Of a stretch of 37,057 bases of DNA, positions 1,456-35,550 are shown piece by piece. Made by a program: the position numbers and the translations under genes. The DNA is from a virus: positions 1-37,057 of the IMG/VR virus record IMGVR_UViG_3300030943_000085, one strand, 5' to 3'. The notes beneath the pieces were generated by a model. That model saw only the letters and a list, made by a program, of their open reading frames with translations, had not been told where the DNA came from and made no database searches. The stretch's first letter is position 1, and the number at the start of each line of letters is the position of its first letter.

Positions 1456-2052
1456 ATGAGAACTCAATCACCCCTCGAAATTTCTGAACGCACTGTAGAA
1501 ACATACGCCTTTGAAGGTGAATGGCAGTTGCTGTTTGGTGAGCCGGACATCCGGTTTAGTACCCTTATCCAGGGCGAAGCAAAAAGCGGTAAAAGTACAT
1601 ACGCTGCCAAATTTGCTCAATATATAGGCGAAAACTTTGGAAGAGCATTATATATCAGTGCCGAAGAACGCTTAAACTCCAAGACTCTGCAAAACCGCCT
1701 AAAGCTTTGCAACGTAACCTCCACCAATGTACGGTTTATCCATTGCAAGAACATTGAAGAAATAGAAGCCTGTATTAAATCCGGTAAGTTTCGATTTGTG
1801 ATAATGGATTCAGTTCAACACGTACAAATGACTTACAACCAGTTTGAAGCCATGCGCCACCGATTCAAGAAGCGCAAACTATCCTGGCATCTTATCATGC
1901 AAATGGGCGTTGACGTAACCAAATGGAAACATGAGGTTGACGTATTGGTAATGGTAAAGAATGGCCGTGCATACATCAAAGGCCGCTACAGCGAATCGAA
2001 CTCTATGCAGGTACTCAGCAGCTCAACAGGTCAACAACAAATCAACTTTTAA
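1456..2052 (+). CDS. RecA-fold ATPase (RadA-like)
   Basis: This 198-residue P-loop ATPase has a Walker A motif G-E-A-K-S-G-K-S at residues 40-47, a RadA-like stretch Y-I-S-A-E-E near 66-71, and a Walker B strand F-V-I-M-D ending at Asp118. It lacks the zinc finger and Lon-like domain of full RadA, so it is a single-domain form. Such proteins act on DNA in recombination or replication. It lies between the Ner-like gene and the transposase, a place where Mu has no ATPase, so it may assist replicative transposition; that role is inference. Confidence 0.7.
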   Translation: MRTQSPLEISERTVETYAFEGEWQLLFGEPDIRFSTLIQGEAKSGKSTYAAKFAQYIGENFGRALYISAEERLNSKTLQNRLKLCNVTSTNVRFIHCKNIEEIEACIKSGKFRFVIMDSVQHVQMTYNQFEAMRHRFKKRKLSWHLIMQMGVDVTKWKHEVDVLVMVKNGRAYIKGRYSESNSMQVLSSSTGQQQINF

Positions 2053-2064
2053 ATACCATTTAAA
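2048..2064. repeat. Paired TTTAAA box, copy 1
   Basis: TTTAAA at 2048-2053 and again at 2059-2064, 11 bp apart, with the second box beginning 7 bases before the ATG at 2066. It belongs to a dispersed family found about ten times in this prophage. Confidence 0.7.
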
Positions 2065-2065
2065 C

Positions 2066-2452
2066 ATGAATAAACCCGCTAAAACCCCCGAACTCCCAAC
2101 ATTTGAAACCGTGGAGCAACTAATGGCTGACAGTTACCTACGCAGCATGATTCAGGAAAAGTTAGACTATATCAATGGTGAACGCAATCGTGTATCCGAA
2201 GGCGGCAAACATAAACTCAGAGCCTCACCGGTTGAGTTTCTTATCAAGATGGATAAGTTCACAGCTGAGTTCATAGCCACCGAATACCTTGAGATACACA
2301 ACAAACGCTCAAAACTATCATTCGCGATACGCGAATTTGTCACTTACACCATTCAGGAATGCGTAGGTGAAACTTTTAAACATTACGAAACACAATTTCA
2401 AAAACAGAATAAAAAACCCTCTAAATCAAAGAAGCATGAAACAACTAATTAA
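2066..2452 (+). CDS. Hypothetical early phage protein, basic C-terminus
   Basis: This 128-residue protein is not recognised. It is predicted mostly helical, with a central region rich in charged residues and a Lys-rich tail (K-K-P-S-K-S-K-K) that could contact nucleic acid. The ATG at 2066 was preferred over an upstream in-frame ATG at 1961 that would overlap the ATPase gene by 92 bases. One of the paired TTTAAA boxes (2048-2064) lies directly upstream of this start. It overlaps the next gene by 17 bases. Confidence 0.6.
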   Translation: MNKPAKTPELPTFETVEQLMADSYLRSMIQEKLDYINGERNRVSEGGKHKLRASPVEFLIKMDKFTAEFIATEYLEIHNKRSKLSFAIREFVTYTIQECVGETFKHYETQFQKQNKKPSKSKKHETTN

Positions 2453-2762
2453 TTCAAAATGGTTTACCGAAGTAGATAAATTTCAAGGTATAATCAAAGT
2501 AAAAGCTGACGATGGTGCAAAAACACCTATATGCAGTATTTCAACGCCTGCAGGAGTAGTATGGATGGAAAATACAATGTGGCTTAATAATGCTTTAAAA
2601 AAGGCTGAAATAGTAACCCAAATGCCTGAGCTTTATAAACTAGCTGAAGAATTGATAGTAAAAATTGAAAGCAATATGTATAAAGATAGAACCGGAGGTC
2701 ATTCCATAGATGATACACAGGCTTTCAAAAAACTTAAAGAACTTGTAATCAAACTATCCTGA
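2436..2762 (+). CDS. Hypothetical early phage protein
   Basis: This 108-residue protein is not recognised. It has a beta-rich first half (P-I-C-S-I-S-T-P-A-G-V-V-W-M) and a helical second half. The ATG at 2436 lies inside the end of the preceding gene in another frame, a typical phage overlap suggesting translational coupling. A longer frame from 2367 is possible but would overlap more. Its stop codon falls inside the tRNA-like hairpin described separately. Confidence 0.6.
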   Translation: MKQLINSKWFTEVDKFQGIIKVKADDGAKTPICSISTPAGVVWMENTMWLNNALKKAEIVTQMPELYKLAEELIVKIESNMYKDRTGGHSIDDTQAFKKLKELVIKLS

Positions 2763-2797
2763 ACGGTTCTCGCGGGGTTCGATTCCCCGCCCAGGAA
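2757..2797 (+). other. tRNA-like T-arm/acceptor minihelix
   Basis: CGGGG(2773-2777) TTCGATT CCCCG(2785-2789) is a textbook T-arm: a 5-bp stem and a 7-base loop with the conserved TTCRA. It is followed by a 7-base acceptor-like strand CCCAGGA (2790-2796) and an A at the discriminator position. Five bases, TCCTG at 2757-2761, can pair with CAGGA to rebuild part of the acceptor stem, but there is no D arm or anticodon arm. It is therefore a fragment or mimic and not a functional tRNA. It lies between two genes of the early operon, just before the transposase. Confidence 0.55.
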
Positions 2798-2803
2798 CAA
2801 TAA

Positions 2804-2820
2804 TTTAAACGCTATTTAAA
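2804..2820. repeat. Paired TTTAAA box, copy 2 (before transposase)
   Basis: TTTAAA at 2804-2809 and 2815-2820, exactly 11 bp apart, ending four bases before the transposase ATG. Member of the dispersed family. Confidence 0.7.
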
Positions 2821-2824
2821 CGAC

Positions 2825-4879
2825 ATGCCAATATATTCACCTATAACTAACAAAATAGTATTCTCAGGCTTAAAGGTTGAGAAATGCGGACTATCATCCG
2901 GCTATTTGAAACGCGCGGCATGTGGTTGCAAAAAAGGTGAGGTGTATTGCTGGGTAAGCGAAATAATCGGCGGTAGACTTTACTTTCAATATGAGTTCTT
3001 AAAGCCTAAATATCAGCTCATGTTACGCACTTTGTATTGCGAAACACTGGAACCTGAAGTTTATCTGAAGAAAAAAACCGAAACAAAAAACAACTCAGTC
3101 CTCACGGCCATTGCCGATCAGTTGCCCGGACTCATTCAAATAGACGCTACCGAACTTAAAACGCTTATGGACTCACAACTCTACACCGCCACCGAAGCTC
3201 ACCAACTGGCACGCGCTGCTGCTTGGCTTCGTTTGCTCAATGAGTATGACGTGCGCCGTGTTCGTTCCGTTGGTTACCGTTCCGTTGAAGAGTTCCGCGA
3301 GGCTGCGTTTAAACACGTTTTAAACGAGCAAACAGGCGCACCGGCTTTGATACGTTTCAAGAAAACAACTATCAATAATCTGCGCGTTTTGCTTCGCAAT
3401 GCTGTGGAATACAAGCGCGATGGCATCAACAGCATGATGCACAAAGGTGCCGGCAACGTGAACCGTGAGAAAGCCGATGCAATGGTACACGCCAAAATGA
3501 TAGAACTGGCTTCAGACCGTCGCAAATTCTCTTGGGAAGATGTCAGCATGATGTACAACGACTGGGCGGTTGAAAACGATAAACCGGAAATGACAACATC
3601 GGCTGTTAAGGCTTACCTGAACATACCGAAAGTGAAAAAAGTATGGTATTATGCCCGCCATGGAAAATTAGCCGGCGACAACGATCTGCAGCCATTGGCA
3701 CAACGCGAACGCCCATCGTTTCCTGATGCATTGTGGAGCATTGACGGTACAACCACGCAGCTTTATTATTTGGATGCCAACGGCAAAATTCAAAGCGATC
3801 TATACGCTTATTTCGTTACCGATGCTTGTACCGGTGCCATTATTGGCCACTCCATTGCCTTTGCCGAAACGGCGGGTATGGTAACCGAAGCATTGAAAAA
3901 CACATTGGATAAATGGGGGAACAAACCCTATCAAATACAGTACGATAACTCATCCGCTAACGTAAGTTATGCAGTCCAGGCATTGATGAGCAACATGAGC
4001 CGCGTACATTTCCCCTGCGAACCGTACAAAGGCCGTTCCAAATACGTGGAATCAATTATCGGACATTTCCAACAGCGGGTTTTGCGTAAACGCGAAAACT
4101 TCAAAGGCGGTAACATTGACACACGCCGGCTAAACTCCAAAGCCAATCCGGAACTACTCAAGGAACTGGGAAAAGACACCGACCGTTTACCACGTTTCGA
4201 CCAGGTGATTGACGAATTCAATCAGGCAGTGAATGAATGGAATAAACGCGGCGAAGCGCGCGACTCTTATGGCCGCTTTGTGGGTGACAGTAAGATATAC
4301 CGGTACGAAACCATTGCCCACGAAAAACGCGCTAAACTCAACTATTTCGACAAATTAAGCCTGTTTGTAATGACACTCAAACAGCCGTATAAATACACCA
4401 CACAAGGCATTCAGATTGAAATTGAAAAGAAGAAATACAATTTCATTGTTCCGGATTCCGACAACGTGGGTGACTTCATATTCTGCAACGAACACCTGGG
4501 CGAAAAGTTTGAAATACGCATTGATATGGCGAAACCTGAAATGTGCACCTTACTGCAAAATGGAATTGTCATTGCCCACGCTTACGAAAAAGAACGCTAC
4601 TCAGCCTGTGTGGCCGACCTGAAAGAAGGCGAAAACACCAAGAAAGTAGCATTTAAAGCCAAACAATTGGAGTTTGGTTCGAACTATTCAATCACCGAAT
4701 TAGAACGTCAGATGTCAATCCTGGGAGAACTCAAAGCAACCGGTACAGATGGCGGTTTTGGTTGGTGGGATACCGACAAACGCACGGTAAACAACCGCAA
4801 CAACCAACAGGAAGATGCCCGAAATGGTATGGCTGATGGATTTACTGAAAAAGAACGTAAAATTTTAAATATAGGATAA
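2825..4879 (+). CDS. Mu-type DDE transposase (MuA-like)
   Basis: This 684-residue protein cuts the phage ends and joins them to target DNA during lysogenisation and replicative transposition. The catalytic core has Asp307 in L-W-S-I-D-G-T, Asp374 in I-Q-Y-D-N-S and Glu409 in Y-V-E-S-I-I-G-H-F. The D-D spacing of 67 equals that recalled for MuA, while the D-E spacing of 35 is the classical retroviral integrase value. Residues upstream of about 300 should bind the phage ends and the C-terminal 200 residues should contact the MuB-like ATPase. Its stop codon overlaps the ATG of the next gene by one base (TAATG), so the two are likely translated in a coupled way. Confidence 0.92.
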   Translation: MPIYSPITNKIVFSGLKVEKCGLSSGYLKRAACGCKKGEVYCWVSEIIGGRLYFQYEFLKPKYQLMLRTLYCETLEPEVYLKKKTETKNNSVLTAIADQLPGLIQIDATELKTLMDSQLYTATEAHQLARAAAWLRLLNEYDVRRVRSVGYRSVEEFREAAFKHVLNEQTGAPALIRFKKTTINNLRVLLRNAVEYKRDGINSMMHKGAGNVNREKADAMVHAKMIELASDRRKFSWEDVSMMYNDWAVENDKPEMTTSAVKAYLNIPKVKKVWYYARHGKLAGDNDLQPLAQRERPSFPDALWSIDGTTTQLYYLDANGKIQSDLYAYFVTDACTGAIIGHSIAFAETAGMVTEALKNTLDKWGNKPYQIQYDNSSANVSYAVQALMSNMSRVHFPCEPYKGRSKYVESIIGHFQQRVLRKRENFKGGNIDTRRLNSKANPELLKELGKDTDRLPRFDQVIDEFNQAVNEWNKRGEARDSYGRFVGDSKIYRYETIAHEKRAKLNYFDKLSLFVMTLKQPYKYTTQGIQIEIEKKKYNFIVPDSDNVGDFIFCNEHLGEKFEIRIDMAKPEMCTLLQNGIVIAHAYEKERYSACVADLKEGENTKKVAFKAKQLEFGSNYSITELERQMSILGELKATGTDGGFGWWDTDKRTVNNRNNQQEDARNGMADGFTEKERKILNIG

Positions 4880-5397
4880 TGATTATTGACACAAATTTTC
4901 AAACTCCGGTACCTGTATGTGATTACATGGCAAACCTTATTCCACAACACTCAAAAAGTATATTTGAGCCTACACCAGGACTAGGAAATATGATTAAAAG
5001 TGTAATCGAAACAGGATTTTTTAATATCGAATCTGCAGAAGATTTTTTCTTACACGATAAATCAAAACGATATGATTCAATCATAATGAATCCACCTTTT
5101 TCGGAGAAATCTGCATTCATGGATAATGCTCCTGATGATATAAAAGGAAAGGGAATGAGAGTCGGGTATTATATACTTACTGAATGCATGAAAATGTCTG
5201 ATAATGTGATTGCTTTAATGCCTTGGTTTACACTTTCAGATTCAGATGTAAGACTACGGTACCTGAAAGGATTTGGAATGAAATCACTTACAGCTCTACC
5301 TCGCAAGACATTTCAATATGCTAGAATTCAAACTGTAGTTATCGAACTTCAAAAGGGATATCAGGACGAAACGGTATTTAAAACATTCAATTTTTAA
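4879..5397 (+). CDS. N6-adenine DNA methyltransferase-like protein
   Basis: The 172-residue protein has an AdoMet-binding motif I-like segment F-E-P-T-P-G-L-G-N (29-37) and the catalytic N-P-P-F motif at 71-74, both typical of adenine-N6 methylases. It is short: there is no target-recognition domain, so it may be a minimal methylase that protects phage DNA or a catalytically weak relative. It sits between the transposase and MuB-like genes, which in Mu are adjacent, and overlaps the transposase stop codon. Target sequence cannot be told from the sequence. Confidence 0.7.
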   Translation: MIIDTNFQTPVPVCDYMANLIPQHSKSIFEPTPGLGNMIKSVIETGFFNIESAEDFFLHDKSKRYDSIIMNPPFSEKSAFMDNAPDDIKGKGMRVGYYILTECMKMSDNVIALMPWFTLSDSDVRLRYLKGFGMKSLTALPRKTFQYARIQTVVIELQKGYQDETVFKTFNF

Positions 5398-5472
5398 TAA
5401 AACAACCGAACCCCATACACAGACCGTTTGAAAGTTTCTGCGTACAGGGTTCTTAAAACAAAAAACAAAGAT

Positions 5473-6423
5473 ATGAAAGAATTCACTAACGAACAAAAAA
5501 AGGCATTGCGCGACACGATCATCGCCATGCAGGAAGCTTCCGGACTATCCGGTAACGAGTTTGCAACCAAACGCCTTGGTTTCACTAATGGCAGCAAGTT
5601 CAGCCACATTAAAAACAACTGGGACAAACCCGGCATGGTTGGTCAGGACACATGGGAAGCCATTGAAAAGTATATCGAAAAGTCAAACAGCTACCGCGGT
5701 GTAGCCACCGACAATTTGAAAAAGGTTTTCGAAGCCTGTAACATTGCCTACAACCTGAAAAAGTTCGTTCCGGTAATCGGAAACGGAGGTTACGGTAAAT
5801 CATTTGCCCTGGGCAAATACCGCGAAATGATTGAAGCAGAACGCAGATTCAAAGTAGTGTATTTCGAAGCTACCAAAGGTACAAACAAGCAATTCATTTC
5901 CGGACTGATGGAAGCTATGGGATGCTACGAACACGGCACAATGGCCGCACAAATTGAAGTAATGCGCGCTTATGCTACCAAACAGGACATGTTGGTAATT
6001 ATCGACGAAGTTTCAAAACTCGAAGGCCATAACGTAACCGTTCTGAAGGACGTAATGACCGCTTTATTGGACGTTTGCGGCATAGTTATGGCCGGAACGC
6101 CGTACTTTATGAAAAACCTGATACGCGGCACGCACCGAGAACGCCACTTATTCAGCGAAACAAAAGACCGATTATTCTACATCACCTATCAGCTGAGTGC
6201 ACCAACCGAACAGGAAGCTGAAGAAATATTCAAAGCCAACGGCATAACCGATAAGGAAACACTGAATATCCTACTGAACCGGGTTGATGAAAAGAAACGC
6301 CAGGCTTTACGTTCACGCAGTTGGTTGGCAAAACAAACCTTCCGCGGTATCAAAGATTGCATCGACCTGATTCGCGCCACTCAAATGAGCTACAGTATTG
6401 ATTATAACTCTTTAAATCTGTAA
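5473..6423 (+). CDS. MuB-like AAA+ ATPase, target selection
   Basis: This 316-residue ATPase probably binds target DNA, activates the transposase and gives target immunity. The N-terminal 70 residues form a helix-turn-helix region, as in MuB. Walker A is G-N-G-G-Y-G-K-S at 103-110 and Walker B is M-L-V-I-I-D-E at 173-179. The ATG at 5473, preceded by an A-rich stretch, fits the domain start better than one at 5428. It follows the methylase gene with a 75-base gap and belongs with the transposase functionally. Confidence 0.88.
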   Translation: MKEFTNEQKKALRDTIIAMQEASGLSGNEFATKRLGFTNGSKFSHIKNNWDKPGMVGQDTWEAIEKYIEKSNSYRGVATDNLKKVFEACNIAYNLKKFVPVIGNGGYGKSFALGKYREMIEAERRFKVVYFEATKGTNKQFISGLMEAMGCYEHGTMAAQIEVMRAYATKQDMLVIIDEVSKLEGHNVTVLKDVMTALLDVCGIVMAGTPYFMKNLIRGTHRERHLFSETKDRLFYITYQLSAPTEQEAEEIFKANGITDKETLNILLNRVDEKKRQALRSRSWLAKQTFRGIKDCIDLIRATQMSYSIDYNSLNL

Positions 6424-6427
6424 TATC

Positions 6428-6631
6428 ATGACAAATTACGATAGAATGAAGCTCACGAAGAAAGGATTTATCCTATTGAGAGTAAGTATTGAAGAATTAA
6501 AGATAACTCAAATGACTGGAAATTCTTCCTGGTGTATTCATATGAAGTTTCCAACGAAAGCAGCTTTAAACCGCGAAATTGAGAGAATCAATAAAAATGA
6601 ACCCTTAATGATATTTGAATATGGCAAATAA
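6428..6631 (+). CDS. Hypothetical early phage protein
   Basis: This 67-residue protein is not recognised. It looks like a compact alpha/beta protein with a helical C-terminus. It starts 4 bases after the MuB-like gene and its end overlaps the next start by 11 bases, so it is a genuine member of the early operon. Confidence 0.55.
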   Translation: MTNYDRMKLTKKGFILLRVSIEELKITQMTGNSSWCIHMKFPTKAALNREIERINKNEPLMIFEYGK

Positions 6632-6875
6632 TTTTAAAGCAGAAAACACCCGAATGAGAGCCGAACATCCAGAGCAATTTACACAAGTCAGAGGTTCAAA
6701 TTCATTAAGTCAGGTAATGGTAGCTAACGAACTTATTCGCAGAAACAGAGAACTAAAACGCTTTGATGAACTGGAAGAACTGATACTTGAAACATCGGCA
6801 TTAGACCCAAAATTTCAAGAATACGTAAATGAATACAATAACCTTAAAATAAGAATAGTACATGGAAAGAATTGA
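6621..6875 (+). CDS. Hypothetical charged helical protein
   Basis: This 84-residue protein is rich in Glu, Arg and Asn and appears almost wholly helical, with no membrane segment. The frame can be extended to a TTG at 6615, but the ATG at 6621 is preferred. It overlaps both neighbours (by 11 and 14 bases). Function unknown. Confidence 0.55.
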   Translation: MANNFKAENTRMRAEHPEQFTQVRGSNSLSQVMVANELIRRNRELKRFDELEELILETSALDPKFQEYVNEYNNLKIRIVHGKN

Positions 6876-7098
6876 TTTAAACATTGGCGAAACATTCACC
6901 AACGAAGGTAAAACCTATGAAGTACAACCTTCTTTAAACTTGGACTGCAACGCCTGTAAAGGGTGTGGCTTTTATGAAACTATAAATCCTTCAGACGAAT
7001 TTGAAGGAAAACCACTCGTTGCATGCTCATCACCTGAAAATTTAATATGTATGTTACCTGATCGCATATTTGTAGAACTCAAAAACGTACAGCCATGA
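6862..7098 (+). CDS. Small cysteine-rich protein, possible zinc ribbon
   Basis: The 78-residue protein has cysteines at 29, 32, 35, 55 and 63 in the pattern C-N-A-C-K-G-C followed by two distant Cys, suggestive of a zinc-binding knuckle. Both ends overlap neighbours, the stop as ATGA with the next start. Such small Cys proteins are common in Bacteroidetes prophage early regions; the function is unknown. Confidence 0.6.
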   Translation: MERIDLNIGETFTNEGKTYEVQPSLNLDCNACKGCGFYETINPSDEFEGKPLVACSSPENLICMLPDRIFVELKNVQP

Positions 7099-7199: not shown

Positions 7200-7356
7200 A
7201 ATACCAGACTACGATCAGGATGACACGTTCGACGAAAACATAGACGATAATGCACTGATCATTTTCGCTTCCCTGCTGGGAGCAACAATAGGCGCAGCAT
7301 TAGCAGCTGCAGGATTAGCAATTTACTACTTTATAAAAATAAATTTTTTAAACTAA
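7183..7356 (+). CDS. 57-residue membrane protein with acidic N-terminus
   Basis: An ATG at 7183 opens a frame with a very acidic N-terminus (about ten Asp/Glu in the first 25 residues) and then one long hydrophobic helix rich in Ala, Gly and Leu, ending Y-Y-F-I-K-I-N-F-L-N. It lies 7 bases before the DUF3164 gene and overlaps the 34-residue membrane peptide. The pair could act together at the host membrane, for example in superinfection exclusion, but nothing in the sequence proves this. Confidence 0.5.
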   Translation: MTNGNEIPDYDQDDTFDENIDDNALIIFASLLGATIGAALAAAGLAIYYFIKINFLN

Positions 7357-7363
7357 TTTCAAA

Positions 7364-8107
7364 ATGGAAACAATAATCAATGTCAAACAATTGACACCCG
7401 CCGAAAAGGCAGAACTGAAACGCCAACTGGAAGCTGAAGAAAGAGCCGAAAAACAGGCTATGAAGAACCAACGAGACACTTACAAAATCTTAGTTAGCGA
7501 TACGGTGACTGACGTATTCAAACCGCTTGTAGGACTCAGCAAACACATTCTGAATATCAAAAAACTGGTATTCGACAGTTTCGATGCTATCATTGAAATG
7601 AAAGAAGAAATTTATGGAGTGAAGCAAGGCCAACAAAGCCACACGTTCACCGATACGAAGTCCGAAATTTCAATCAAAATCGGATATCGGGTCACAGACG
7701 GTTACGATGACACATTCAGTACCGGAATCGAAAAAGTAAAGAACTACATGGCACGCCTGACAGATACGGAAGGAGCTGAAAAGTTTCGTAAGATTTTAAG
7801 TGCTTTGCTCAGAACCGATGCAAAAGGTAACCTGAAACCGTCCCGCGTCATGGAACTACGCCAGTACGCCAACGAAGAACAAGATGAGGAACTGAACGAC
7901 GGTGTACGCATTATTGAAGACAGTTACAAACCGGTGAAAAGCTGCCAATTCGTTGAAGTGAAGTTCAAAGATGAAGACAACAAGTGGCACTCATTACCAT
8001 TGAGCATTAGTGCCTTTGATTTGGTGGAAGAGCCGGTTGCTGAAACGGAAGAAATCAATCCAATTATATTGGAAGCAATTTCAAAACCTAATACAGACCT
8101 CATTTAA
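7364..8107 (+). CDS. DUF3164 family protein
   Basis: The 247-residue protein matches the DUF3164 family found in the early regions of many Mu-like phages. Features are the Lys/Glu-rich N-terminal helix, the central segment on induction of T-D-G-Y-D-D-T-F-S-x-G, and the C-terminal segment ending L-P-L-S-I-S-A-F-D-L. Its biochemical function is unknown, though its conservation next to transposition genes suggests a role in phage DNA metabolism. Expected length is about 200-250 residues, so it is complete. Confidence 0.75.
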   Translation: METIINVKQLTPAEKAELKRQLEAEERAEKQAMKNQRDTYKILVSDTVTDVFKPLVGLSKHILNIKKLVFDSFDAIIEMKEEIYGVKQGQQSHTFTDTKSEISIKIGYRVTDGYDDTFSTGIEKVKNYMARLTDTEGAEKFRKILSALLRTDAKGNLKPSRVMELRQYANEEQDEELNDGVRIIEDSYKPVKSCQFVEVKFKDEDNKWHSLPLSISAFDLVEEPVAETEEINPIILEAISKPNTDLI

Positions 8108-8200: not shown

Positions 8201-8202
8201 CA

Positions 8203-8219
8203 TTTAAACACAATTTAAA
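8203..8219. repeat. Paired TTTAAA box, copy 4
   Basis: TTTAAA at 8203-8208 and 8214-8219, 11 bp apart, upstream of the ATG at 8230. Same dispersed family. Confidence 0.7.
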
Positions 8220-8229: not shown

Positions 8230-8547
8230 ATGACATTAGTAATTATTGAAAGCCCATACGCAGGCAATATTGACCACAATATAGCCTATGCAAGAGCATG
8301 CCTTCGCGATTCACTTATGCGCGGTGAATCACCACTTGCAAGCCATTTACTTTACACACAACCAGGTGTATTGGATGACAACCTAATGGATGAAAGAATG
8401 CTTGGTATAAATGCCGGATTGGAATGGCGAAAAGTTGCCGAAAAACACGTTTTCTATGTTGACTATGGCTATAGCTCAGGTATGCTCTACGCTCTGAATT
8501 ATGCAAACGAAAACAATATAATCATAGAAGAAAGGAGCATACTATGA
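8230..8547 (+). CDS. Nucleoside deoxyribosyltransferase-like protein (DUF7768-type)
   Basis: The 105-residue protein opens with a strand V-I-I-E-S-P-Y-A-G and continues Y-A-R-A-C-L-R-D-S-L, then P-L-A-S-H-L-L-Y, M-L-G-I-N-A-G-L-E-W and Y-S-S-G-M. That order resembles small proteins of the nucleoside 2-deoxyribosyltransferase superfamily seen widely in phages. The role may be nucleotide salvage or sensing. It overlaps the next gene by 4 bases (ATGA). Confidence 0.6.
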   Translation: MTLVIIESPYAGNIDHNIAYARACLRDSLMRGESPLASHLLYTQPGVLDDNLMDERMLGINAGLEWRKVAEKHVFYVDYGYSSGMLYALNYANENNIIIEERSIL

Positions 8548-11303: not shown

Positions 11304-11771
11304 ATGGAAATAACTATGCTTGTGATAATTGCAGGAATTCTTTTCATTTGGTATCGTAGATTCACATCTGCTGGATATGATTTTAAAAATACGATTTTAA
11401 GAGTTAAATATACTCATGGTCATCCTGATATCAATCAGCCATCATGGTATAATTTAGGAATCAGAAACAGTGATATTTATCTGTTGAGTACATTCAGTAA
11501 TGAAGTAGCTAAAATAAGCGGAAAAAACGTGAAAAATGTCGTTGTAGAAGATGGAACAACGTTTAAAGAAAAAGTTACACTAGCCCGGATGGCAATGATT
11601 GGTGTATTTGCTTTTGCTTTGAAAAAGAAGAAAACTAATGAGTTAGCTTACCTAACAATTGAGTGGAACGATGGACGTTTCGACAACTCAACCATTTTTG
11701 AGTATAGTGGTAAAGGTTCTTTGCAGAAAGCAAACAGAGATAAAAACAAGATAATGAATTTAATAAGATGA
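11304..11771 (+). CDS. Putative accessory membrane-anchored protein (moron)
   Basis: The 155-residue protein begins with a hydrophobic span (M-L-V-I-I-A-G-I-L-F-I-W) followed by a positive R-R and a soluble domain with a second hydrophobic patch (M-A-M-I-G-V-F-A-F-A-L). The ATG at 11304 is preferred over one at 11241, which lies in the terminator. It has its own promoter, sits between a terminator and a broken methylase gene, and is convergent with the late operon. This is the typical setting of a lysogenic conversion gene. Specific function unknown. Confidence 0.6.
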   Translation: MEITMLVIIAGILFIWYRRFTSAGYDFKNTILRVKYTHGHPDINQPSWYNLGIRNSDIYLLSTFSNEVAKISGKNVKNVVVEDGTTFKEKVTLARMAMIGVFAFALKKKKTNELAYLTIEWNDGRFDNSTIFEYSGKGSLQKANRDKNKIMNLIR

Positions 11772-11971
11772 TAGTCATCAAAATCATTGTAGATAACATC
11801 AGCATCTGGTAACTGTTGTTTCACCCAGTTACTCAGCAACCCCGAACCGCCGAATAGATCAACAAACAATGGTGCATCACTAAACTGCTTTAAAGCCTCT
11901 TTAAACTCATTCTGAAATCTACGTTTTTGCCCCTGAAATGGTAGGGGACTTTGATTAAAATTTTTACTCAT
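11768..11971 (-). pseudogene. 5' remnant of a Dam-type adenine methyltransferase gene
   Basis: From the ATG at 11971 the frame reads a typical D12-class Dam start: P-L-P-F-Q-G-Q-K-R-R-F near residues 9-19, then the AdoMet motif F-V-D-L-F-G-G-S-G-L-L and V-I-Y-N-D-F-D. Homology stops at about residue 68, after which the frame runs into the antisense of the membrane-protein gene and ends at 11648. The catalytic D-P-P-Y and all of the target-recognition part (about 200 residues) are missing. The gene is broken, apparently by arrival of the membrane-protein gene. Confidence 0.75.
11889..11905. repeat. Paired TTTAAA box inside methylase remnant
   Basis: TTTAAA at 11889-11894 and 11900-11905, 11 bp apart, inside the methylase pseudogene. 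Same dispersed family; the inner spacer (GCCTC) differs from the consensus. Confidence 0.55.
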
Positions 11972-14455: not shown

Positions 14456-14722
14456 TTATCGTGTTATTTCAATTTTAAAATCAGAACATGCCCAACTTGA
14501 TTTCTCTTGAAAAATATACAACCAAAATACTTTTACAACTAAGTTTCCAACTTGTATGGTGAAACTAACTGGTCGGTCATACTCATCCAATGAATCAGGG
14601 ACTGTTTTATCTGTAATTTGTTGATTCACTAGATTAAACCATTCCTTGAATTCTGGTGATTGTCCTGAAAGATTTAGTTCGGGATTAAATTCTATGTTAT
14701 CGGTTATCTTTATCAATTGCAT
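14456..14722 (-). CDS. Hypothetical tail-associated protein
   Basis: The 88-residue protein is not recognised. Helical first half, beta-rich second half with V-K-V-F-W-L-Y-I-F. It overlaps the collagen-like fibre gene by 10 bases and lies 1 base before the large fibre gene, so it could be a fibre connector or assembly factor. That is inference from position only. Confidence 0.5.
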   Translation of the reverse strand: MQLIKITDNIEFNPELNLSGQSPEFKEWFNLVNQQITDKTVPDSLDEYDRPVSFTIQVGNLVVKVFWLYIFQEKSSWACSDFKIEITR

Positions 14723-15537
14723 ATAATTAAAGCATTAGCATTTGAATATCCTGTATTTATAGTAATATCATTAATAACCAATTCTGTGTTTGCAGTCAAT
14801 GTTACTCCAACCAAAGTATTATGATCATAGCTTGTTGCTCCAATACTAGCAGAAATTGATACGCAATTGCTCATAAGCAAAACACTTCCAAGTGTCTTAT
14901 CAGTAGGCCACTTAAACCTAACAGGATAGGTTATACCATTCGTTCCTTGTTTGAAAAGTGAAATTGTAAGGGGTGCGTTTGTACCGTTAGTTCCGTTTGT
15001 TCCATTAGTTCCTTGTGCTTTCACACCTGTATCTGTCGTACCAATAAACCAGTTACCATTTATGCCAATATGAGGAGTAACACCATCAGTTCCGGCAGAA
15101 CCCACATCACCATCCGCTCCTTGTGCTTTAACACCGGTATCTATTATGCCTATATACCAGTTACCATTTACGCCAATATGAGGAGTAAGGCCGTCAGTTC
15201 CGGCAGCACCATTTACTCCTTGAGCTTTTATACCTGTGTCAGTTGTGCCAATAAACCAGTTACCATTTACGCCGATATGGGGAGTAATACCATCAGCACC
15301 CGCTGCACCATCCGCTCCTTGAGCTTTTACACCGGTATCGGTTGTACCTATATACCAATTACCATTTGTGCCAATATGAGGAGTAACGCCATCAGTTCCC
15401 GCAGCCTCAGCTACCACATCCAATATAGCATCAGCTGCATCGGCCACACGCTGATGCGTGTTGGCATACTTTTCTGTCTCATTCCGTATTTGTGCCCATT
15501 TTACACGGGCAGTGGCAATTAAAGAAGCTAAGCTCAT
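14713..15537 (-). CDS. Collagen-like repeat tail fibre protein
   Basis: The 274-residue protein has a helical N-terminus (about 1-48), then four tandem units of about 33-36 residues built on T-P-H-I-G-x-N-G-N-W-x-I-G-T-T-D-T-G-x-K-A-Q-G, joined by short Gly-x-y collagen-like linkers (G-A-D-G-A-A-G, G-T-N-G-T-N-G-T-N). The C-terminal 70 residues form a separate beta domain. This layout is that of a trimeric phage fibre. Tandem DNA units of about 100 bp underlie it and could vary in number. Confidence 0.75.
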   Translation of the reverse strand: MSLASLIATARVKWAQIRNETEKYANTHQRVADAADAILDVVAEAAGTDGVTPHIGTNGNWYIGTTDTGVKAQGADGAAGADGITPHIGVNGNWFIGTTDTGIKAQGVNGAAGTDGLTPHIGVNGNWYIGIIDTGVKAQGADGDVGSAGTDGVTPHIGINGNWFIGTTDTGVKAQGTNGTNGTNGTNAPLTISLFKQGTNGITYPVRFKWPTDKTLGSVLLMSNCVSISASIGATSYDHNTLVGVTLTANTELVINDITINTGYSNANALIICN

Positions 15538-15837: not shown

Positions 15838-16560
15838 TTAAATTATTGTATAGGTATAAACATAGTTATCATCGGCAGTGATATTTAGATGAACAAGATC
15901 AATAACATTGAAAGTATATTCGTGATATGAAGTGCCTGACGATGCTCCCTGAACAATTTCGATAGCTGTATAATAATGTTGATCTAATCCAGAGTCATAA
16001 ACTCCGATATCTATCATCAAATGACTTGTAACAGGGAACTGAGAACTAGCAACAACACTATTACCTGATTTTTGAATCGTAATCAGATTCTCAGTTGGTT
16101 GTACTTTTTCGCATACCGGCGAACTCCATACAAAATCGAAGGTTCTATCCACTTTTTCGCAAACCTGCGAACCCCACTCATATTCATATTCATAAGCCGT
16201 TTGGTTGATTGTATATCGCTTTCCTGTGGCCTTATACTTCTCAAGCAATCCGATAAGCAGTTGAACATTATAAACCGTTCCTGAAGGCACATTTACAATA
16301 AAGTCGTAAGTTACCTGATCACCATCGGTTATAAAGATCACTCTATTATAACTGCCAAAAATCCGGTAATTGATAATCAACTCCAAATATATCACCTGGC
16401 ATGTGATGGACGACTGAAGTATTATATCATTATACCAAGTTTTCCATGCTGTATAGATCGTTGTAAATGGGTAAGCAATAGCTTTCACCAAATCAACTAA
16501 CCCACTGCGTAAAAACGTAGGTAAAAGCAGCTTCAACAGTTTTTCAAAATCTATATTCAT
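15838..16560 (-). CDS. Baseplate-to-fibre connector (Mu gp48-like position)
   Basis: The 240-residue protein starts M-N-I-D-F-E-K-L-L-K-L-L-L-P-T-F-L-R and follows the J-like baseplate gene, overlapping it by one base. In Mu-like phages this position is taken by gp48, which links baseplate to fibre. A near-repeat G-S-Q-V-C-E-K-V-D-R-T / S-S-P-V-C-E-K-V-Q-P-T in the middle (about residues 130-152) suggests a short internal duplication. Sequence-level similarity to gp48 is not clear, so the role is mainly from gene order. Confidence 0.5.
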   Translation of the reverse strand: MNIDFEKLLKLLLPTFLRSGLVDLVKAIAYPFTTIYTAWKTWYNDIILQSSITCQVIYLELIINYRIFGSYNRVIFITDGDQVTYDFIVNVPSGTVYNVQLLIGLLEKYKATGKRYTINQTAYEYEYEWGSQVCEKVDRTFDFVWSSPVCEKVQPTENLITIQKSGNSVVASSQFPVTSHLMIDIGVYDSGLDQHYYTAIEIVQGASSGTSYHEYTFNVIDLVHLNITADDNYVYTYTII

Positions 16561-17441
16561 TAGATTGACGTTTGAGGTTGATAGGTAACAGTGAGCGAAC
16601 CAATTTTAAACCAACCATTCGTACTTTCGTACGTTCCCCATAGCTCAGTCTTAACCACTGTATTAATGCTTAGACCTGTAATTTTCACGTCAACAACACC
16701 TATGGCCGCTTGAATTTTATCTACGAACTTGGTCACATTTAAATTACCTTTAAAGTAATTTGTATTTAGGTCAACGATATAACCATCAGCGGCCAGATCA
16801 ACCGGTTTACTACCATCGTTGATAAGTTCACCATTTGAGTTAAGCAACAATGGGTTATAATTTACCGTCAAAGCAATATCAAGCGTATCACCGTCGCCTG
16901 ATACAAGTTTTGTCAACACGCCGGCATACTTTATCTTTGAAACATAAGTATCCACTTCAGCCTTTTGGAGATTAGTAAGCGGCAATATTACGCCATTGCT
17001 TTCGCCGGCAACATATAAAAACACTTTGTATTTATTTGAATCATCTGTATCGTATTTCTCACGTACGGCTACCCGCTTGATTATTTGCTTAGAAGAATCT
17101 ATAACACTGTATTCATATCGCTTGGTAGTGGAATTCAGTACTAAATTATCACCACTCTGGAAAGCAGCAAGCGCATCATGCCAATAGGCATCGTTGCAGA
17201 TATAGTTTTTATCGACAATGGCCTGAATGGCCGTTTGTGCCGTCTCCACAATTGATTCAATCAGGAAACAAGCGTAACCAATGGCATAAAATACCAGGTT
17301 CTCAATAGAAACGATTGAAAAGGTTTTTGAAAAACCATTCAATAGATCGTTACTCGTTAAACTATATATCGTTTGAACAGCAGACAATGACATGTAATAA
17401 TTGCCAATAACCTCTTTCCATTCCGTTGCGCTCTTTGCCAT
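16560..17441 (-). CDS. Baseplate J-like protein
   Basis: The 293-residue protein is the probable baseplate wedge protein (gpJ/Mu gp47 type). Evidence is its place before the gp48-position gene, a typical T-V-N-Y-N-P-L-L-L-N-S-N-G-E-L segment, and a C-terminal A-A-I-G-V-V-D-V-K-I-T-G-L motif, where J-like proteins have such a strand. It contains a paired TTTAAA box at 16738-16754 within the coding sequence. Confidence 0.6.
   Translation of the reverse strand: MAKSATEWKEVIGNYYMSLSAVQTIYSLTSNDLLNGFSKTFSIVSIENLVFYAIGYACFLIESIVETAQTAIQAIVDKNYICNDAYWHDALAAFQSGDNLVLNSTTKRYEYSVIDSSKQIIKRVAVREKYDTDDSNKYKVFLYVAGESNGVILPLTNLQKAEVDTYVSKIKYAGVLTKLVSGDGDTLDIALTVNYNPLLLNSNGELINDGSKPVDLAADGYIVDLNTNYFKGNLNVTKFVDKIQAAIGVVDVKITGLSINTVVKTELWGTYESTNGWFKIGSLTVTYQPQTSI
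16738..16754. repeat. Paired TTTAAA box inside baseplate J-like gene
   Basis: TTTAAA at 16738-16743 and 16749-16754, 11 bp apart, inside the coding region. The spacer TTACC differs from the consensus AGCA, so it may be a chance or degenerate copy. Confidence 0.4.
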
Positions 17442-19403: not shown

Positions 19404-19433
19404 ACACTTAATTCCTTTTTAATCTTCCTAATG

Positions 19434-19470
19434 TACCCTTTCAAAGGGGACGAGCGAAGCGGAGGGGTTA
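19434..19470. repeat. G-rich palindromic repeat element, copy A
   Basis: CCCTTT-CAAAGGGG, then GCGAAGC, then GGAGGGGTT: an intergenic element with inverted arms. The TAA stop of the lysozyme gene lies at its edge (19468-19470). A near-identical copy lies at about 20251-20286. Confidence 0.7.
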
Positions 19471-20227: not shown

Positions 20228-20250
20228 AATCTATTTTTTCCTTCTTACTG

Positions 20251-20286
20251 TCCCCTTCCAAAGGGGACGAGCGTAGCGGAGGGGTT
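20251..20286. repeat. G-rich palindromic repeat element, copy B
   Basis: CCCCTTCCAAAGGGGACGAG continuing with GCGTAGC and GGAGGGGTTT. It is near-identical to the copy at 19434-19470 and lies between the gp25-position gene and the spike gene. Confidence 0.7.
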
Positions 20287-20801
20287 TAATGCGTTATTTT
20301 ACTATCCTCAATTTGACCAAAGTCACCAAGTTGTTTTCCTGTGATAGCTGCTTTCAAAGCTGTTTGCAATGCACTTGGTGAGCCGCTTCCAGGTTCCGGT
20401 ATCGGTGTTCCCGATAAAACCGTTATAATTGCCTGAAGCACTGCATTGGTTTTATCCAACTGCGTTTTCAGTTCCGGAGTATTCGTCAAACCGCCGTTTT
20501 CGCCTCCATTAAATTCTACCAGTTCCGTTTCACTGGCATAGATCAACCAGGCAACTGATTCCTGGCCTTCCAGAATTCCAATAATACAATCAGTTTCAAC
20601 GACCGGTTTTGTATTGCATGAACCGAAGCCCAGGGCAACATCATAATAAGCCAATTCGTCGCTCATTCCTTCAGCTTCCATTGTTTTTGCATCCCAGTCC
20701 ACCGACTTGCATGTTACCCATCGTATTTGAGCCTGTGAATTGCTGCTTAAATGCCGTTTAAATAGCATCATGAATTCATCTGCCGCCGTTTCCAAACCCA
20801 T
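20286..20801 (-). CDS. Probable baseplate spike/puncturing protein
   Basis: The 171-residue protein follows the hub gene as Mu gp45 (spike) follows gp44. It has a beta-rich core (I-R-W-V-T-C-K-S-V-D-W-D, then L-A-Y-Y-D-V-A-L-G and C-I-I-G-I-L-E-G) compatible with an OB-like fold, then a helical C-terminus. It lacks a visible beta-helix spike repeat, so it is shorter than Mu gp45. It also carries a degenerate paired TTTAAA box (20746-20762). Confidence 0.5.
   Translation of the reverse strand: MGLETAADEFMMLFKRHLSSNSQAQIRWVTCKSVDWDAKTMEAEGMSDELAYYDVALGFGSCNTKPVVETDCIIGILEGQESVAWLIYASETELVEFNGGENGGLTNTPELKTQLDKTNAVLQAIITVLSGTPIPEPGSGSPSALQTALKAAITGKQLGDFGQIEDSKITH
20746..20762. repeat. Degenerate paired TTTAAA box inside spike gene
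   Basis: CTTAAA at 20746-20751 and TTTAAA at 20757-20762, 11 bp apart, one mismatch to the consensus, inside coding sequence. Confidence 0.45.
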
Positions 20802-24264: not shown

Positions 24265-24484
24265 TACTGTTTATTGCGTTGAGAATTTCAGCTGCAGCAT
24301 CGATTAGGGCAGCCTTTTGGTTTGCGTGGTTTACTTTGGTGATATATTGCCATTCAGCATAAAGCTTACACCACTTGTCAAACGTGATTGTATCAGGGTC
24401 GATGCCGTATTCGTGCCTGATTATGGCATCGACCTGACTGATTAAATCATCATCTTGTATTTGTTCGCGCCTTATGCTTTGTCT
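24233..24484 (-). CDS. Tail assembly chaperone extension (-1 frameshift product)
   Basis: This frame has no start codon of its own but is open from the slippery site to a TGA at 24233. It encodes 83 residues, R-Q-S-I-R-R-E-Q-I-Q-D-D-D-L then I-S-Q-V-D-A-I-I-R-H-E-Y-G-I-D and ending N-Q-L-D-T. The content fits the second part of a gpG-gpGT type chaperone. It is reached by a -1 shift on T-TTT-TTA (24490-24484), giving a fusion of about 258 residues. Confidence 0.75.
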   Translation of the reverse strand, partial: RQSIRREQIQDDDLISQVDAIIRHEYGIDPDTITFDKWCKLYAEWQYITKVNHANQKAALIDAAAEILNAINSNVSTNNQLDT

Positions 24485-25008
24485 AAAAAACTTCCGTATG
24501 GCTTCAGGAAATTATCAACCTCCGAAGCAAGCCCTAAATAAACCAAACCGTTGGTCTTAAGAGCCTCCACATCTCCACCTACTATCAGGTTCTTTATGAA
24601 TGCTTCAATATATTCGTCAGTCTTACCGGATTTAGCATAATTCATCATCATTTTAATGGTACCTGGGTCTGGACGTTTAACTGCATAACTATAAAACTCT
24701 CCTGGTTCTATCAAAGTGCCTGATTCATCATAAGTTGGAGCCTCCAACACCACGGTAAGAATCTTTAGTTTACCAAATTGAGATGTCAGATCACCAAGTT
24801 CTTTGACTGAAATAGTGCAATTATCCTTTACATAGCTTGCTAACGGTACGACAGCAAACGAAGCAGCAGCTTCTACCATATGTTTGGGCGAAATATGTTG
24901 TGCATAATGCATTACCGTACTACACGCCTGGGCGTTACCAAACGAGAAAAATAAAGTAGCCATAACAGCCACCAAAAGCAATAATTTGAATTTAAAATGT
25001 CCTTTCAT
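24472..25008 (-). CDS. Tail assembly chaperone with N-terminal signal-like segment
   Basis: The 178-residue protein is in the tail chaperone position between tube and tape measure. Residues from about 90 show the family pattern F-Y-S-Y-A-V-K-R-P-D-P-G-T-I-K-M and F-I-K-N-L-I-V-G-G-D. The N-terminus is unusual: K-F-K-L-L-L-L-V-A-V-M-A-T-L-F-F-S-F-G-N then A-Q-A-C, a clear signal peptide or lipobox-like segment. I chose the ATG at 25008 because the longer frame opens with TTG at 25035. Its last codons contain the frameshift heptamer. Confidence 0.7.
   Translation of the reverse strand: MKGHFKFKLLLLVAVMATLFFSFGNAQACSTVMHYAQHISPKHMVEAAASFAVVPLASYVKDNCTISVKELGDLTSQFGKLKILTVVLEAPTYDESGTLIEPGEFYSYAVKRPDPGTIKMMMNYAKSGKTDEYIEAFIKNLIVGGDVEALKTNGLVYLGLASEVDNFLKPYGSFLDKA
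24484..24490 (-). promoter_or_regulatory. -1 ribosomal frameshift slippery heptamer
   Basis: Read on the minus strand, the sequence T-TTT-TTA lies in the correct register for X-XXY-YYZ, four codons before the zero-frame stop. The alternative frame past it stays open for 83 codons. This is the standard site for tail chaperone frameshifting in long-tailed phages. Confidence 0.8.
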
Positions 25009-25038
25009 AATCGTAAAATTTTGTTGTAAAATCAATAG

Positions 25039-25055
25039 CTTAAATACTGTTTAAA
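25039..25055. repeat. Paired TTTAAA box upstream of tail chaperone
   Basis: CTTAAA at 25039-25044 and TTTAAA at 25050-25055, 11 bp apart. It lies about 30 bases upstream of the minus-strand chaperone start and adjoins a 9-bp hairpin CGTATCCGG/CCGGATACG (25056-25064 with 25092-25100). Confidence 0.55.
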
Positions 25056-29517: not shown

Positions 29518-29521
29518 TCAT

Positions 29522-29556: not shown

Positions 29557-29575
29557 ATAAAAATCAGAGCAAAAA

Positions 29576-30130: not shown

Positions 30131-30131
30131 C

Positions 30132-30317
30132 ATGAAACTATCTATATTCGATTTTATCAGATTAAGATACTACACTGAAGTATTCAAAACTATGTATTTT
30201 TTGGATGATCATATAACCTATAAACCGGCGCAAGAAATGCATCAGTATTGGTTAGAGTATTATCGTAATAAAATATCATTTCTGTTAGAAAAACAAAACA
30301 ATAAAATGTTTAAATAG
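30132..30317 (+). CDS. Hypothetical small late protein
   Basis: The 61-residue protein has aromatic- and Tyr-rich helices (F-I-R-L-R-Y-Y-T-E-V-F-K) and is not recognised. It begins one base after the terminase small subunit stop and ends shortly before the large subunit. It may be a terminase accessory factor. Confidence 0.5.
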   Translation: MKLSIFDFIRLRYYTEVFKTMYFLDDHITYKPAQEMHQYWLEYYRNKISFLLEKQNNKMFK

Positions 30318-30325
30318 CATTTAAA
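30309..30325. repeat. Paired TTTAAA box before large terminase
   Basis: TTTAAA at 30309-30314 and 30320-30325, 11 bp apart, the second reaching the A of the ATG. It is an exact consensus copy, TTTAAATAGCATTTAAAT. Confidence 0.75.
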
Positions 30326-31863: not shown

Positions 31864-31867
31864 CTAT

Positions 31868-32296
31868 ATGAAATACATTGATGAAACTGACCTTGCATCG
31901 GTCATACAAGAACGCTTCTTAGATGAAAGCACTGCCAACATTGCAGGCAATACAAATATATTGGATAATATCGAATCAAAGGCCATTGAGTATGTTATCT
32001 CATACATTACCGGCAGATATAAAACTAACCTGATATTTGCAGAAACAATACCACTGGCCAGCGGAATATTAAAGCAAATCATTGCTCAGATAGTCGTTTA
32101 TCGTGCCGTAAAACGCAACGCAGCACGCAAAGTCCCCGAAGACTATGTAACACTTATGTCCGATGCCACAAAACAGTTGGAACGCATTCAATCCGGTGCA
32201 ATGTCATTGGTAGGCATGCCACTTCAAACCGATGATTCAGGTAACACAACACCGGTTCTTTTCGGCAACACAACTAATAGTAGTAACTTCATTTAA
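31868..32296 (+). CDS. Phage gp36-like head completion protein (DUF1320)
   Basis: The 142-residue protein starts with Y-I-D-E-T-D-L and continues with S-K-A-I-E-Y-V-I-S-Y-I-T-G-R-Y, the standard pattern of DUF1320/gp36 proteins that form head-tail connectors in Mu-like phages. It follows the large terminase by 4 bases and precedes the portal gene. Confidence 0.72.
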   Translation: MKYIDETDLASVIQERFLDESTANIAGNTNILDNIESKAIEYVISYITGRYKTNLIFAETIPLASGILKQIIAQIVVYRAVKRNAARKVPEDYVTLMSDATKQLERIQSGAMSLVGMPLQTDDSGNTTPVLFGNTTNSSNFI

Positions 32297-32308
32297 ATAG
32301 CATTTAAA
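32292..32308. repeat. Paired TTTAAA box before portal gene
   Basis: TTTAAA at 32292-32297 and 32303-32308, 11 bp apart, in the gap between the gp36-like and portal genes, five bases before the ATG. Confidence 0.7.
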
Positions 32309-32312
32309 CACT

Positions 32313-34871: not shown

Positions 34872-34874
34872 ATC

Positions 34875-34912
34875 AAAACAGGCTATAAACCGAAGTCTAT
34901 AACCTGTTTTTT
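34875..34912 (+). terminator. Terminator after the portal fusion gene
   Basis: AAACAGG with an inner TATA/TATA pairs with CCTGTTT and is followed by TTTT, 15 bases after the stop. A second stem GCACTTC/GAAGTGC follows at about 34914-34940. Part of the rightward transcript may stop here. Confidence 0.7.
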
Positions 34913-34959
34913 GGCACTTCGCAGCCGTAGCTTAGAAGTGCTGCAAATATAATACATTT

Positions 34960-35550
34960 ATGGATAATAAATACAAAATACCGGATTTTTCTTCAATGGG
35001 TAAAGATTTACTCAAAGATGCTGCACGGTATGCGGGTTCTGAATCGGTCAAGTTCTTTAAAAAAAGCTTTGTAAAGGAAGGTTTCACCGATACATCATTT
35101 GTACCTTGGAAAAAGACTACCAATCCAATGGCCGGTAAACGTACCATGTATAAATCAGGTACATTGATGCAATCTATCCGTAAAACTGAAGGTACAATTA
35201 GACGTATAGTGGTTGAATCAAAAACTGACTATTCAGAAATACAAAACAATGGTGGAACTATTACCGTAACTCCACAAATGAAAAAGTTCTTTTGGGCAAA
35301 ATTCTACGAATTTAGTGGAAAGATTAAGCTAAGTAAAGAAGGCACATCAGCATCATTTAGAAATAAAGGAAATAAAGAAATCAGCCAAAAAGCAATGTTT
35401 TTTCGGCGAATGGCAATGATGAAAGTCGGTTCAAAAATCAAAATACCAAAACGCCAGTTCATGGGTGACAGTAAAGTAATGATGACCGGCTTCGATTCCT
35501 GGTGGAAAGGTCAGTTAGAAGTATCATTTAAACAGCATTTAAATAAGTAA
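34960..35550 (+). CDS. Phage virion morphogenesis protein (gpG-like)
   Basis: The 196-residue basic protein resembles the virion morphogenesis family (Mu gpG, gp31). It has F-V-P-W-K-K-T-T, G-T-L-M-Q-S-I-R-K-T and Y-S-E-I-Q-N-N-G-G near the middle, and a C-terminal R-Q-F-M-G-D-S. It is thought to act in head-tail joining. A paired TTTAAA box overlaps its last codons (35527-35543). Confidence 0.68.
   Translation: MDNKYKIPDFSSMGKDLLKDAARYAGSESVKFFKKSFVKEGFTDTSFVPWKKTTNPMAGKRTMYKSGTLMQSIRKTEGTIRRIVVESKTDYSEIQNNGGTITVTPQMKKFFWAKFYEFSGKIKLSKEGTSASFRNKGNKEISQKAMFFRRMAMMKVGSKIKIPKRQFMGDSKVMMTGFDSWWKGQLEVSFKQHLNK
35527..35543. repeat. Paired TTTAAA box at gene end
   Basis: TTTAAA at 35527-35532 and 35538-35543, 11 bp apart, over the last codons of the gpG-like gene and 12 bases before the next ATG. 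It matches the consensus except for one base. Confidence 0.7.

Follow-up and report, generated by a model that had tools for sequence, protein, structure and literature searches.

Tandem TTTAAA boxes at 11-bp steps in Mu-like phages, a candidate self-recognition signal for the ATPase MuB

The virus record IMGVR_UViG_3300030943_000085, whose 37,057 bases were analyzed in full and are called the window here, belongs to a Mu-like phage. Its genes include those for a MuA transposase (phrog_310), an ATPase resembling MuB (phrog_296) and a repressor of the S24 type, and its head genes are of the Mu type. At scattered places the window carries arrays of the palindrome TTTAAA repeated at steps of 11 bp. 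Judged by their sequence, these arrays are DNA elements dispersed over many Mu-like phages, with examples whose hosts lie in Bacteroidota, Gammaproteobacteria and Bacillus. That a DNA-level element of transposable phages exists we regard as practically certain. Our reading of its purpose is more tentative: MuB may read the arrays, nucleating on the phage's own DNA for genome immunity or for the Mu domain, and we put the probability of this at roughly 0.45.

Results

The 11-bp pair in the window and its relatives

The initial annotation of the window had listed nine exact TTTAAA-N5-TTTAAA pairs, and all nine are present where it placed them. Its two copies with one mismatch, at 20746 and 25039, are real as well, but a third at 7347 had gone unlisted. 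The window holds 61 TTTAAA hexamers rather than the roughly 30 claimed, and the number of pairs expected by hexamer counts is therefore 0.10; a second-order Markov model gives 0.03. The annotation's figure of about 0.02 is thus replaced, while its point that chance accounts for far less than one pair stands. Indeed, the maximum in 200 simulations from the Markov model was one pair, against the nine seen. All other spacings from 6 to 60 bp yield only three TTTAAA pairs, at 40, 57 and 59 bp, with no enrichment away from 11 bp, and TTTAAA/TTTAAA at 11 bp scores highest among hexamer pairs with at least four occurrences at these spacings. A position weight matrix (PWM) scan, with its threshold set for about 0.5 chance hits per genome, finds 11 sites.

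The same spacing dominates in relatives. We pooled 116 loci, not dereplicated: the window, 80 terminase relatives that were kept (including 11 close ones), 33 more, the Winogradskyella phage Peternella_1 and a human-gut phage. Used as a single-protein query, the window transposase returned no relative in IMG/VR. In the pooled loci TTTAAA pairs number 166 at 11 bp (91 when made non-redundant), 49 at 22 bp and 13 at 33 bp, with 4.4 expected per spacing; the neighboring spacings of 10 and 12 bp have 10 and 14. Given these steps of 11, 22 and 33 bp, the element is a tandem array and not a mere pair. An exact 11-bp pair is found in 76 of the 116 loci, and pairs are kept in all 11 close relatives, frequently ahead of the same genes.

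Paired boxes are also distinct in their flanks, since 68% of 168 paired boxes read RTTTAAAY versus 15% of 1430 unpaired TTTAAA. The unit built from 121 non-redundant pairs reads YRTTTAAAYR and one further base, C or G; a weak third box is seen to the left and right. This profile was symmetrised, and the symmetry of the flanks rests instead on the RTTTAAAY counts and on an unsymmetrised count of the 5-bp spacer, which is YRSYR in 57 of the 121 pairs and YYSRR in 1. Pyrimidine-purine steps, which are flexible, fall three times per turn in the unit. One symmetric unit per turn suggests that the arrays may be read by a dimeric DNA-binding protein. The MuA insertion-site consensus is given as CYSRG; thus, the spacer looks opposite to a preferred target.

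Selection at the DNA level and placement among genes

In the open reading frames (ORFs) of 30 phages, the exact motif encodes in-frame FKxxL[KN] 52 times out of 65, where codon usage predicts 4.75; for six other spacings taken together the corresponding figures are 17 out of 69 and 12.4. With related contexts removed, the counts are 26 of 34 against 2.98 (P = 3e-16) at 11 bp and 15 of 50 against 9.14 at the six other spacings. The motif is selected at the DNA level inside genes, against codon usage. An FKxxLN peptide was rejected as the cause: at gene junctions the motif runs across stop codons in other frames, and the codon bias is strong only at the 11-bp spacing.

Gene calls here are simple ORF selections. 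By these calls, 132 non-redundant arrays comprise 77 in codirectional gaps, 8 in convergent gaps, 7 in divergent gaps, 35 within genes and 5 at edges, although only 8% of the DNA is non-coding. Divergent gaps, the expected places for promoters, contain 7 of the 92 gap arrays though they supply 17% of gap bases. Across 40 codirectional gaps of at least 60 bp, array position averages 0.515 on a scale from the upstream stop (0) to the start (1), and the whole gap is used. An ATG lies near 54 of the 91 non-redundant pairs, at a highly variable offset; this proximity arises because the genomes are compact and their non-coding DNA sits there.

The window itself illustrates this placement. Seven copies near start codons had been claimed, and seven are found, six of them exact. 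The array at 2048–2064 overlaps the stop codon of gene 1456–2052 and ends one base ahead of an ATG at 2066; that at 2804–2820 is immediately 5′ of the MuA gene (2825–4879, plus strand); that at 8203–8219 precedes a gene at 8230; and the final base of the array at 30309–30325 is the first base of the terminase large subunit ATG. Two more lie at 32292–32308, at the stop of a gp36-like gene and directly ahead of the portal gene, and at 35527–35543, at the 3′ end of the neck gene ahead of a gene at 35555. The seventh, with one mismatch, is at 25039–25055, upstream of gene 24472–25035 (minus strand). Away from starts, the exact copies at 3308–3324 (within MuA, coding FKHVLN) and 16738–16754 (within gene 16560–17441, minus strand, coding FKGNLN) are intragenic, and the one at 11889–11905 lies within a short reverse-strand ORF, 11648–11971, which we take to resemble the start of a DNA adenine methylase, apparently truncated. 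The other one-mismatch array, 20746–20762, is within gene 20286–20801 (minus strand); some relatives are exact at the position corresponding to it, and likewise at that of 25039. The weak one-mismatch pair at 7347–7363 abuts a gene at 7364 and falls under the PWM threshold. Overall, a protein lying along one face of the DNA, as was originally suggested, is supported by the 11-bp step with its 22- and 33-bp multiples, the palindromic boxes and the DNA-level selection within genes.

The arrays mark transposable phages

We scanned IMG/VR by sequence alone for three boxes at 11-bp steps and, as a control, at 12-bp steps; each scan gives at least 120 stretches, with at least 80 loci listed, and prevalence should not be read from these totals. 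The search for MuA took one locus per contig and contigs of 28 kb or more, which leaves 49 of 80 listed loci at 11 bp and 32 of 80 at 12 bp. Among the matches listed, MuA is present on 38 of the 49 contigs at 11 bp and on 1 of the 32 in the control (Fisher P = 5e-12, with contigs taken as independent, some of which are close relatives). The phrog_296 profile also matches all 14 control genomes, so only strong MuB matches (E of 4.4e-29 or better) were counted; these fall on exactly the same 38 listed contigs as MuA. DUF3164, the only other non-structural family sought in these contigs, occurs in 27 of the 38. The 11 MuA-negative contigs listed have two or three pairs each, except for a 169-kb contig with fourteen and G047 (the contig of L202, 30.7 kb), where seven 11-bp pairs were observed and neither MuA nor MuB matched. 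G047 may be a fragment or an exception.

The association also appears when the motif plays no part in the choice of loci. A Mu-group MuA set (80 of 263 relatives kept, 65 dereplicated loci) has 2, 9, 16 and 5 exact 11-bp pairs over four GC bins, against backgrounds of 0.22, 0.25, 0.28 and 0.03. An array stands just 3′ of the MuA stop in 10 of 45 Mu-group MuA loci, where 0.015 are expected. Phage Mu has such an array at 3315–3342, after MuA and before MuB, and Vibrio phage martha likewise has one between the two genes; MuB autoregulation is possible there. In several MuA phages (Peternella, G022, G025, hankyphage, G056, G063 and BalMu-1) an array lies about 60–185 bp from one end of the record. 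The genome of Dysgonomonas sp. ZJ279 holds two further Mu-like prophages with arrays. Arrays occur in all four of G029, G036, G055 and G057, in which what we take to be the Pasteurellaceae uptake core is present in 16, 5, 13 and no copies, respectively.

Among named phages, we compared 11-bp pairs at up to one mismatch with the mean of other spacings. The counts are 12 versus 1.64 in the window, 6 versus 0.31 in Mu, 17 versus 2.03 in Pasteurella AFS-2018a, 7 versus 0.95 in Vibrio martha, 12 versus 0.92 in Bacillus BalMu-1, 19 versus 3.64 in Flavobacterium fF4 and 9 versus 2.77 in Peternella. Hankyphage has 3 versus 0.49, and 17 versus 4.59 at two mismatches. At up to one mismatch, no 11-bp TTTAAA pairs are seen in D3112, Mushu or Porphyromonas gingivalis phage 008a (Pg008a). 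The Mu, Pasteurella, Vibrio and Bacillus phages rule out a feature of Bacteroidota only.

A ranking of all 64 palindromic hexamers at 11 bp gives the same division. TTTAAA comes first in the window, Mu, AFS-2018a, martha, BalMu-1, hankyphage, fF4 and Peternella, and not in D3112, Ab30, Mushu, Pg008a, lambda, P2, HP1 or B124-14; in HP1 it is second, with a low score. The best 11-bp palindromes of the GC-rich phages are TTCGAA in Ab30 (3.7), TTGCAA in Pg008a (3.9), CCGCGG in D3112 (3.4) and CACGTG in Mushu (2.9). Since these scores do not exceed those of controls (GTTAAC at 3.9 in B124-14, TGCGCA at 3.6 in P2), the use of another palindrome in these phages is undecided. TTCGAA, at 3.5–3.9, is among the best 11-bp palindromes in Pg008a (L286), Ab30 (L519) and hankyphage (L285), and in Pg008a it scores 3.5 at both 11 and 22 bp. 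It is possibly a GC-richer box, though controls score similarly with other palindromes.

The host DNA tested lacks the signal. In carrier genome G001, 11 of the 20 pairs in 3.9 Mb fall within one 34-kb stretch, and in G002 one 28-kb stretch contains 5 of the 9 genome pairs. Six flavobacterial carriers have 15–47 pairs per genome versus 9–17 for a reversed-pattern control, most of the places not being listed. Six 20-kb host pieces from G001, G002 and G004 have no significant 11-bp TTTAAA excess, nor do phages lambda, P2, HP1 and B124-14, of which HP1 comes closest (P = 0.055). A host regulatory motif is not supported, given the clustering of pairs within one stretch each of G001 and G002 and the lack of excess in the host pieces. 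The initial annotation had named three refuting outcomes, namely equal enrichment in the host, equal enrichment at other spacings, and absence from relatives at matching gene starts; all were put to the test and none came about. In the AT-rich loci of the 12-bp scan, exact 11-bp pairs are under background, at 4 versus 8.5.

Candidate readers

We compared 20 phages including the window, some possibly cut at region ends, for near-universal non-structural families. These are an ATPase and a terminase-linked helix-turn-helix (HTH) protein, each in all 20, MuB in 19, and MuA and DUF3164 in 18 each. DUF3164 was rejected as the reader: it is found in only 27 of the 38 MuA-positive contigs, and Ab30 carries it without arrays.

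The proposed reader in the window is the MuB-like AAA+ ATPase at 5473–6423 (plus strand; phrog_296 E 5e-21, AAA_22), separated from MuA by one gene. MuB of array-bearing phages, including that of the window, has about 100 residues ahead of its Walker A motif. In Peternella the position of this motif is uncertain, as a regular expression gives 138, yet DTAGKSK lies within the first 100 residues. D3112 and Ab30 have neither the N-terminal extension nor arrays. Ten MuB proteins were scanned with Pfam HTH profiles, and seven match (Mu, AFS-2018a, martha, BalMu-1, hankyphage, fF4 and Mushu), with AFS-2018a alone above the curated cut-off; MuB of D3112 and Ab30 has no Pfam HTH match. The PDB includes full-length MuB (8xvb–8xvd) and an entry, 2mqk, that matches residues 1–63.

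Other features of the window

Some further features were noted. AATCGTGTAAATTT is present twice at the left end, at 35–48 and 58–71, 23 bp apart; these copies are probably transposase end-binding sites. At the other end, an open frame at 36987–37057 begins MPEFLSEAEQ and runs off the contig, and it is possibly host DNA past the right end of the phage. Gene 14713–15537 has four imperfect copies of a 99–108-bp repeat, at 14988–15414. Finally, a 53-bp repeat, 85% identical, occupies two intergenic gaps of the late operon, at 19417–19469 and 20234–20286.

Discussion

We propose that MuB would read the arrays by means of a putative N-terminal helix-turn-helix, each turn of DNA presenting one symmetric unit. 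Every array would nucleate a patch of MuB on DNA that belongs to the phage and so mark that DNA as self. Such patches could give rise to the strong MuB binding reported inside Mu, which in turn would help genome immunity, the Mu chromosomal domain, or both. Several published observations fit this proposal. MuB binding inside Mu is described as strong and uniform, its cause not being known (PMC2837660), and the Mu domain is reported to require MuB and not MuA (PMC3820752). IstB, a related ATPase, is described as tracking DNA, with each dimer spanning roughly one turn (PMC11208146). For Ab30, 53,800 self-insertion sites are reported, 0.4% of events (PMC5977238); for wild-type Mu the figure is zero self-insertions in about 10 million, by a method that differs from that of the Ab30 study (PMC7350765). 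A further step is to regard the arrays as a self-recognition code by which MuB might coat or fold its own genome, and a random inserter avoid itself. This seems to us possible and a little less probable than reading by MuB as such; in Mu the code would be degenerate.

A number of points weigh against this proposal. The putative link between MuB and the motif is drawn from co-occurrence and elimination. No Pfam HTH profile matches the MuB of the window at E 0.05. The absence of arrays from D3112 and Ab30 is confounded by their GC-rich composition, which leaves them only 7 and 10 TTAA in total. Mushu and Pg008a have the N-terminal extension of MuB without TTTAAA arrays, and thus the rule joining extension and array is not strict. 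The N-terminal extension of IstB is described as unlike that of MuB (PMC11208146), MuB itself is described as a non-specific DNA binder, and its deletion is reported to breach Mu genome immunity only faintly, with 85 self-insertions (PMC7350765). Mu has the pair in only four places at up to one mismatch (3315, 20084, 26211 and 35224), in degenerate form, though MuB coats Mu uniformly. Exact 11-bp pairs are absent from 40 of the 116 terminase-selected loci, many of them fragments; the 40 include all 11 of L109–L119, which are mostly distant relatives. In the MuA-selected loci, 12-bp pairs (2, 0, 10 and 0 by GC bin) are also raised in two bins, and the step is therefore less strict there. One observation in favor of the proposal is itself weak: arrays are somewhat more evenly spaced than random in the window (P = 0.016), and 20 of 26 related phages fall below the median (combined P = 0.004). 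This is indicative only, given the relatedness of the phages and the chance that some records are not complete.

Other readers of the same DNA are conceivable. A host nucleoid protein of the HU type could recognize phased, flexible AT boxes, with the phage folding its genome into a domain independently of MuB; the three pyrimidine-purine steps per turn, flexible as such steps are, would suit it. In E. coli, A-tracts with 10–12-bp periodicity have likewise been suggested to form a structural code that nucleoid proteins could read (cited in PMC3820752). Nevertheless, no significant 11-bp excess is seen in the six host pieces or in phages lambda, P2, HP1 and B124-14, and a phage protein is favored both by the palindromic form of the consensus and by its link to MuA phages, which makes this alternative unlikely, if the least so of those considered here. 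We rate slightly lower a role as stoperator-like silencing or roadblock sites at which the prophage repressor, or some other regulator of the phage, would act. The copies are dispersed and mostly intergenic, as stoperators are described to be. However, the window has no TTTAAA before position 2048 and hence none in its repressor/early gap, divergent gaps contain 7 of the 92 gap arrays though 17% of gap bases, and the likely repressors differ in their DNA-binding domain, which is HTH_19/HTH_3-like in the window and MuA-like N-terminal in G029, G036, G044, G055 and G057, although a CI-family match is common to the window and at least two of these, G036 and G057. A repressor operator as the main role, the repressor being one of the proteins that the initial annotation named for binding tests, was rejected on these grounds, together with the absence of a pair (up to one mismatch) from the Mu repressor/early-promoter stretch at 900–1110.

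That empty stretch of Mu also speaks against binding by the transposase MuA or its enhancer-binding N-terminal domain, for instance at dispersed enhancer-like sites. MuA marks the identical 38 of 49 listed contigs as MuB, and in several phages an array lies near one end; yet the Mu domain is reported to need MuB and not MuA (PMC3820752), and the binding sites described for MuA are the two ends and the enhancer (PMC5977238), so we consider this quite improbable. Two further ideas can be set aside almost entirely. A start-associated or translational leader element acting in mRNA, the other possibility raised originally, draws on the 54 of 91 pairs near an ATG. As a main function it is refuted by placement (35 of 132 arrays intragenic, 8 in convergent gaps, no start-side bias in codirectional gaps, a variable ATG offset) and by the codon-level selection inside genes. 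A general 10–11-bp A/T periodicity of bacterial and phage DNA without any specific element, such as has been reported for E. coli (cited in PMC3820752), is refuted just as firmly by the single MuA contig among the 32 listed for 12-bp triples, the lack of excess in control phages and host pieces, and the 4 versus 8.5 pairs in AT-rich loci.

If MuB does read them, the arrays would supply the sequence feature so far lacking to account for MuB binding inside Mu, and would give a possible role to the DNA-binding-like N-terminal domain of MuB. The motif also makes testable how a phage that inserts nearly anywhere avoids destroying its own copies. Whatever their reader, 11-bp TTTAAA arrays allow many transposable phages to be recognized in metagenomes by sequence alone. 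A search of the open-access literature, subscription journals being outside its scope, found no description of such a motif, and an earlier mention is possible.

It is useful to contrast the arrays with known systems. Genome immunity and the Mu domain (PMC2837660, PMC3820752, PMC7350765) are, as the arrays would be, phage-wide and at least partly dependent on MuB; the passages of these papers on binding and topology name no DNA motif for MuB binding inside Mu, whereas the arrays are known from sequence alone. The SAS/ESAS elements of cluster K mycobacteriophages (PMC3203893) are similar in being a short motif in many copies upstream of starts, conserved in relatives and described without an assigned function. 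SAS is given there as an asymmetric 13-bp sequence that mostly keeps one orientation and, with few exceptions, directly precedes gene starts; by comparison, the arrays are palindromic and tandem at 11 bp, with 35 of 132 within coding sequence, 8 convergent and no start-side bias. The stoperators of cluster A mycobacteriophages such as L5 (PMC9283540) are likewise dispersed sites in short intergenic spaces, protein binding to the arrays being predicted. They are described as 13-bp asymmetric sites, oriented with transcription and thought to bind a repressor monomer (PMC9283540). In contrast, the arrays are symmetric tandem boxes, lie outside the repressor/early gap of the window, and are common to phages with differing likely repressors. 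The Mu repressor operators, which are tandemly arranged, and the enhancer form one cluster beside the repressor gene; the arrays are dispersed, with none in that gap of the window. Finally, transposase end-binding (att) sites are confined to the two ends of the phage, whereas the arrays span its whole genome.

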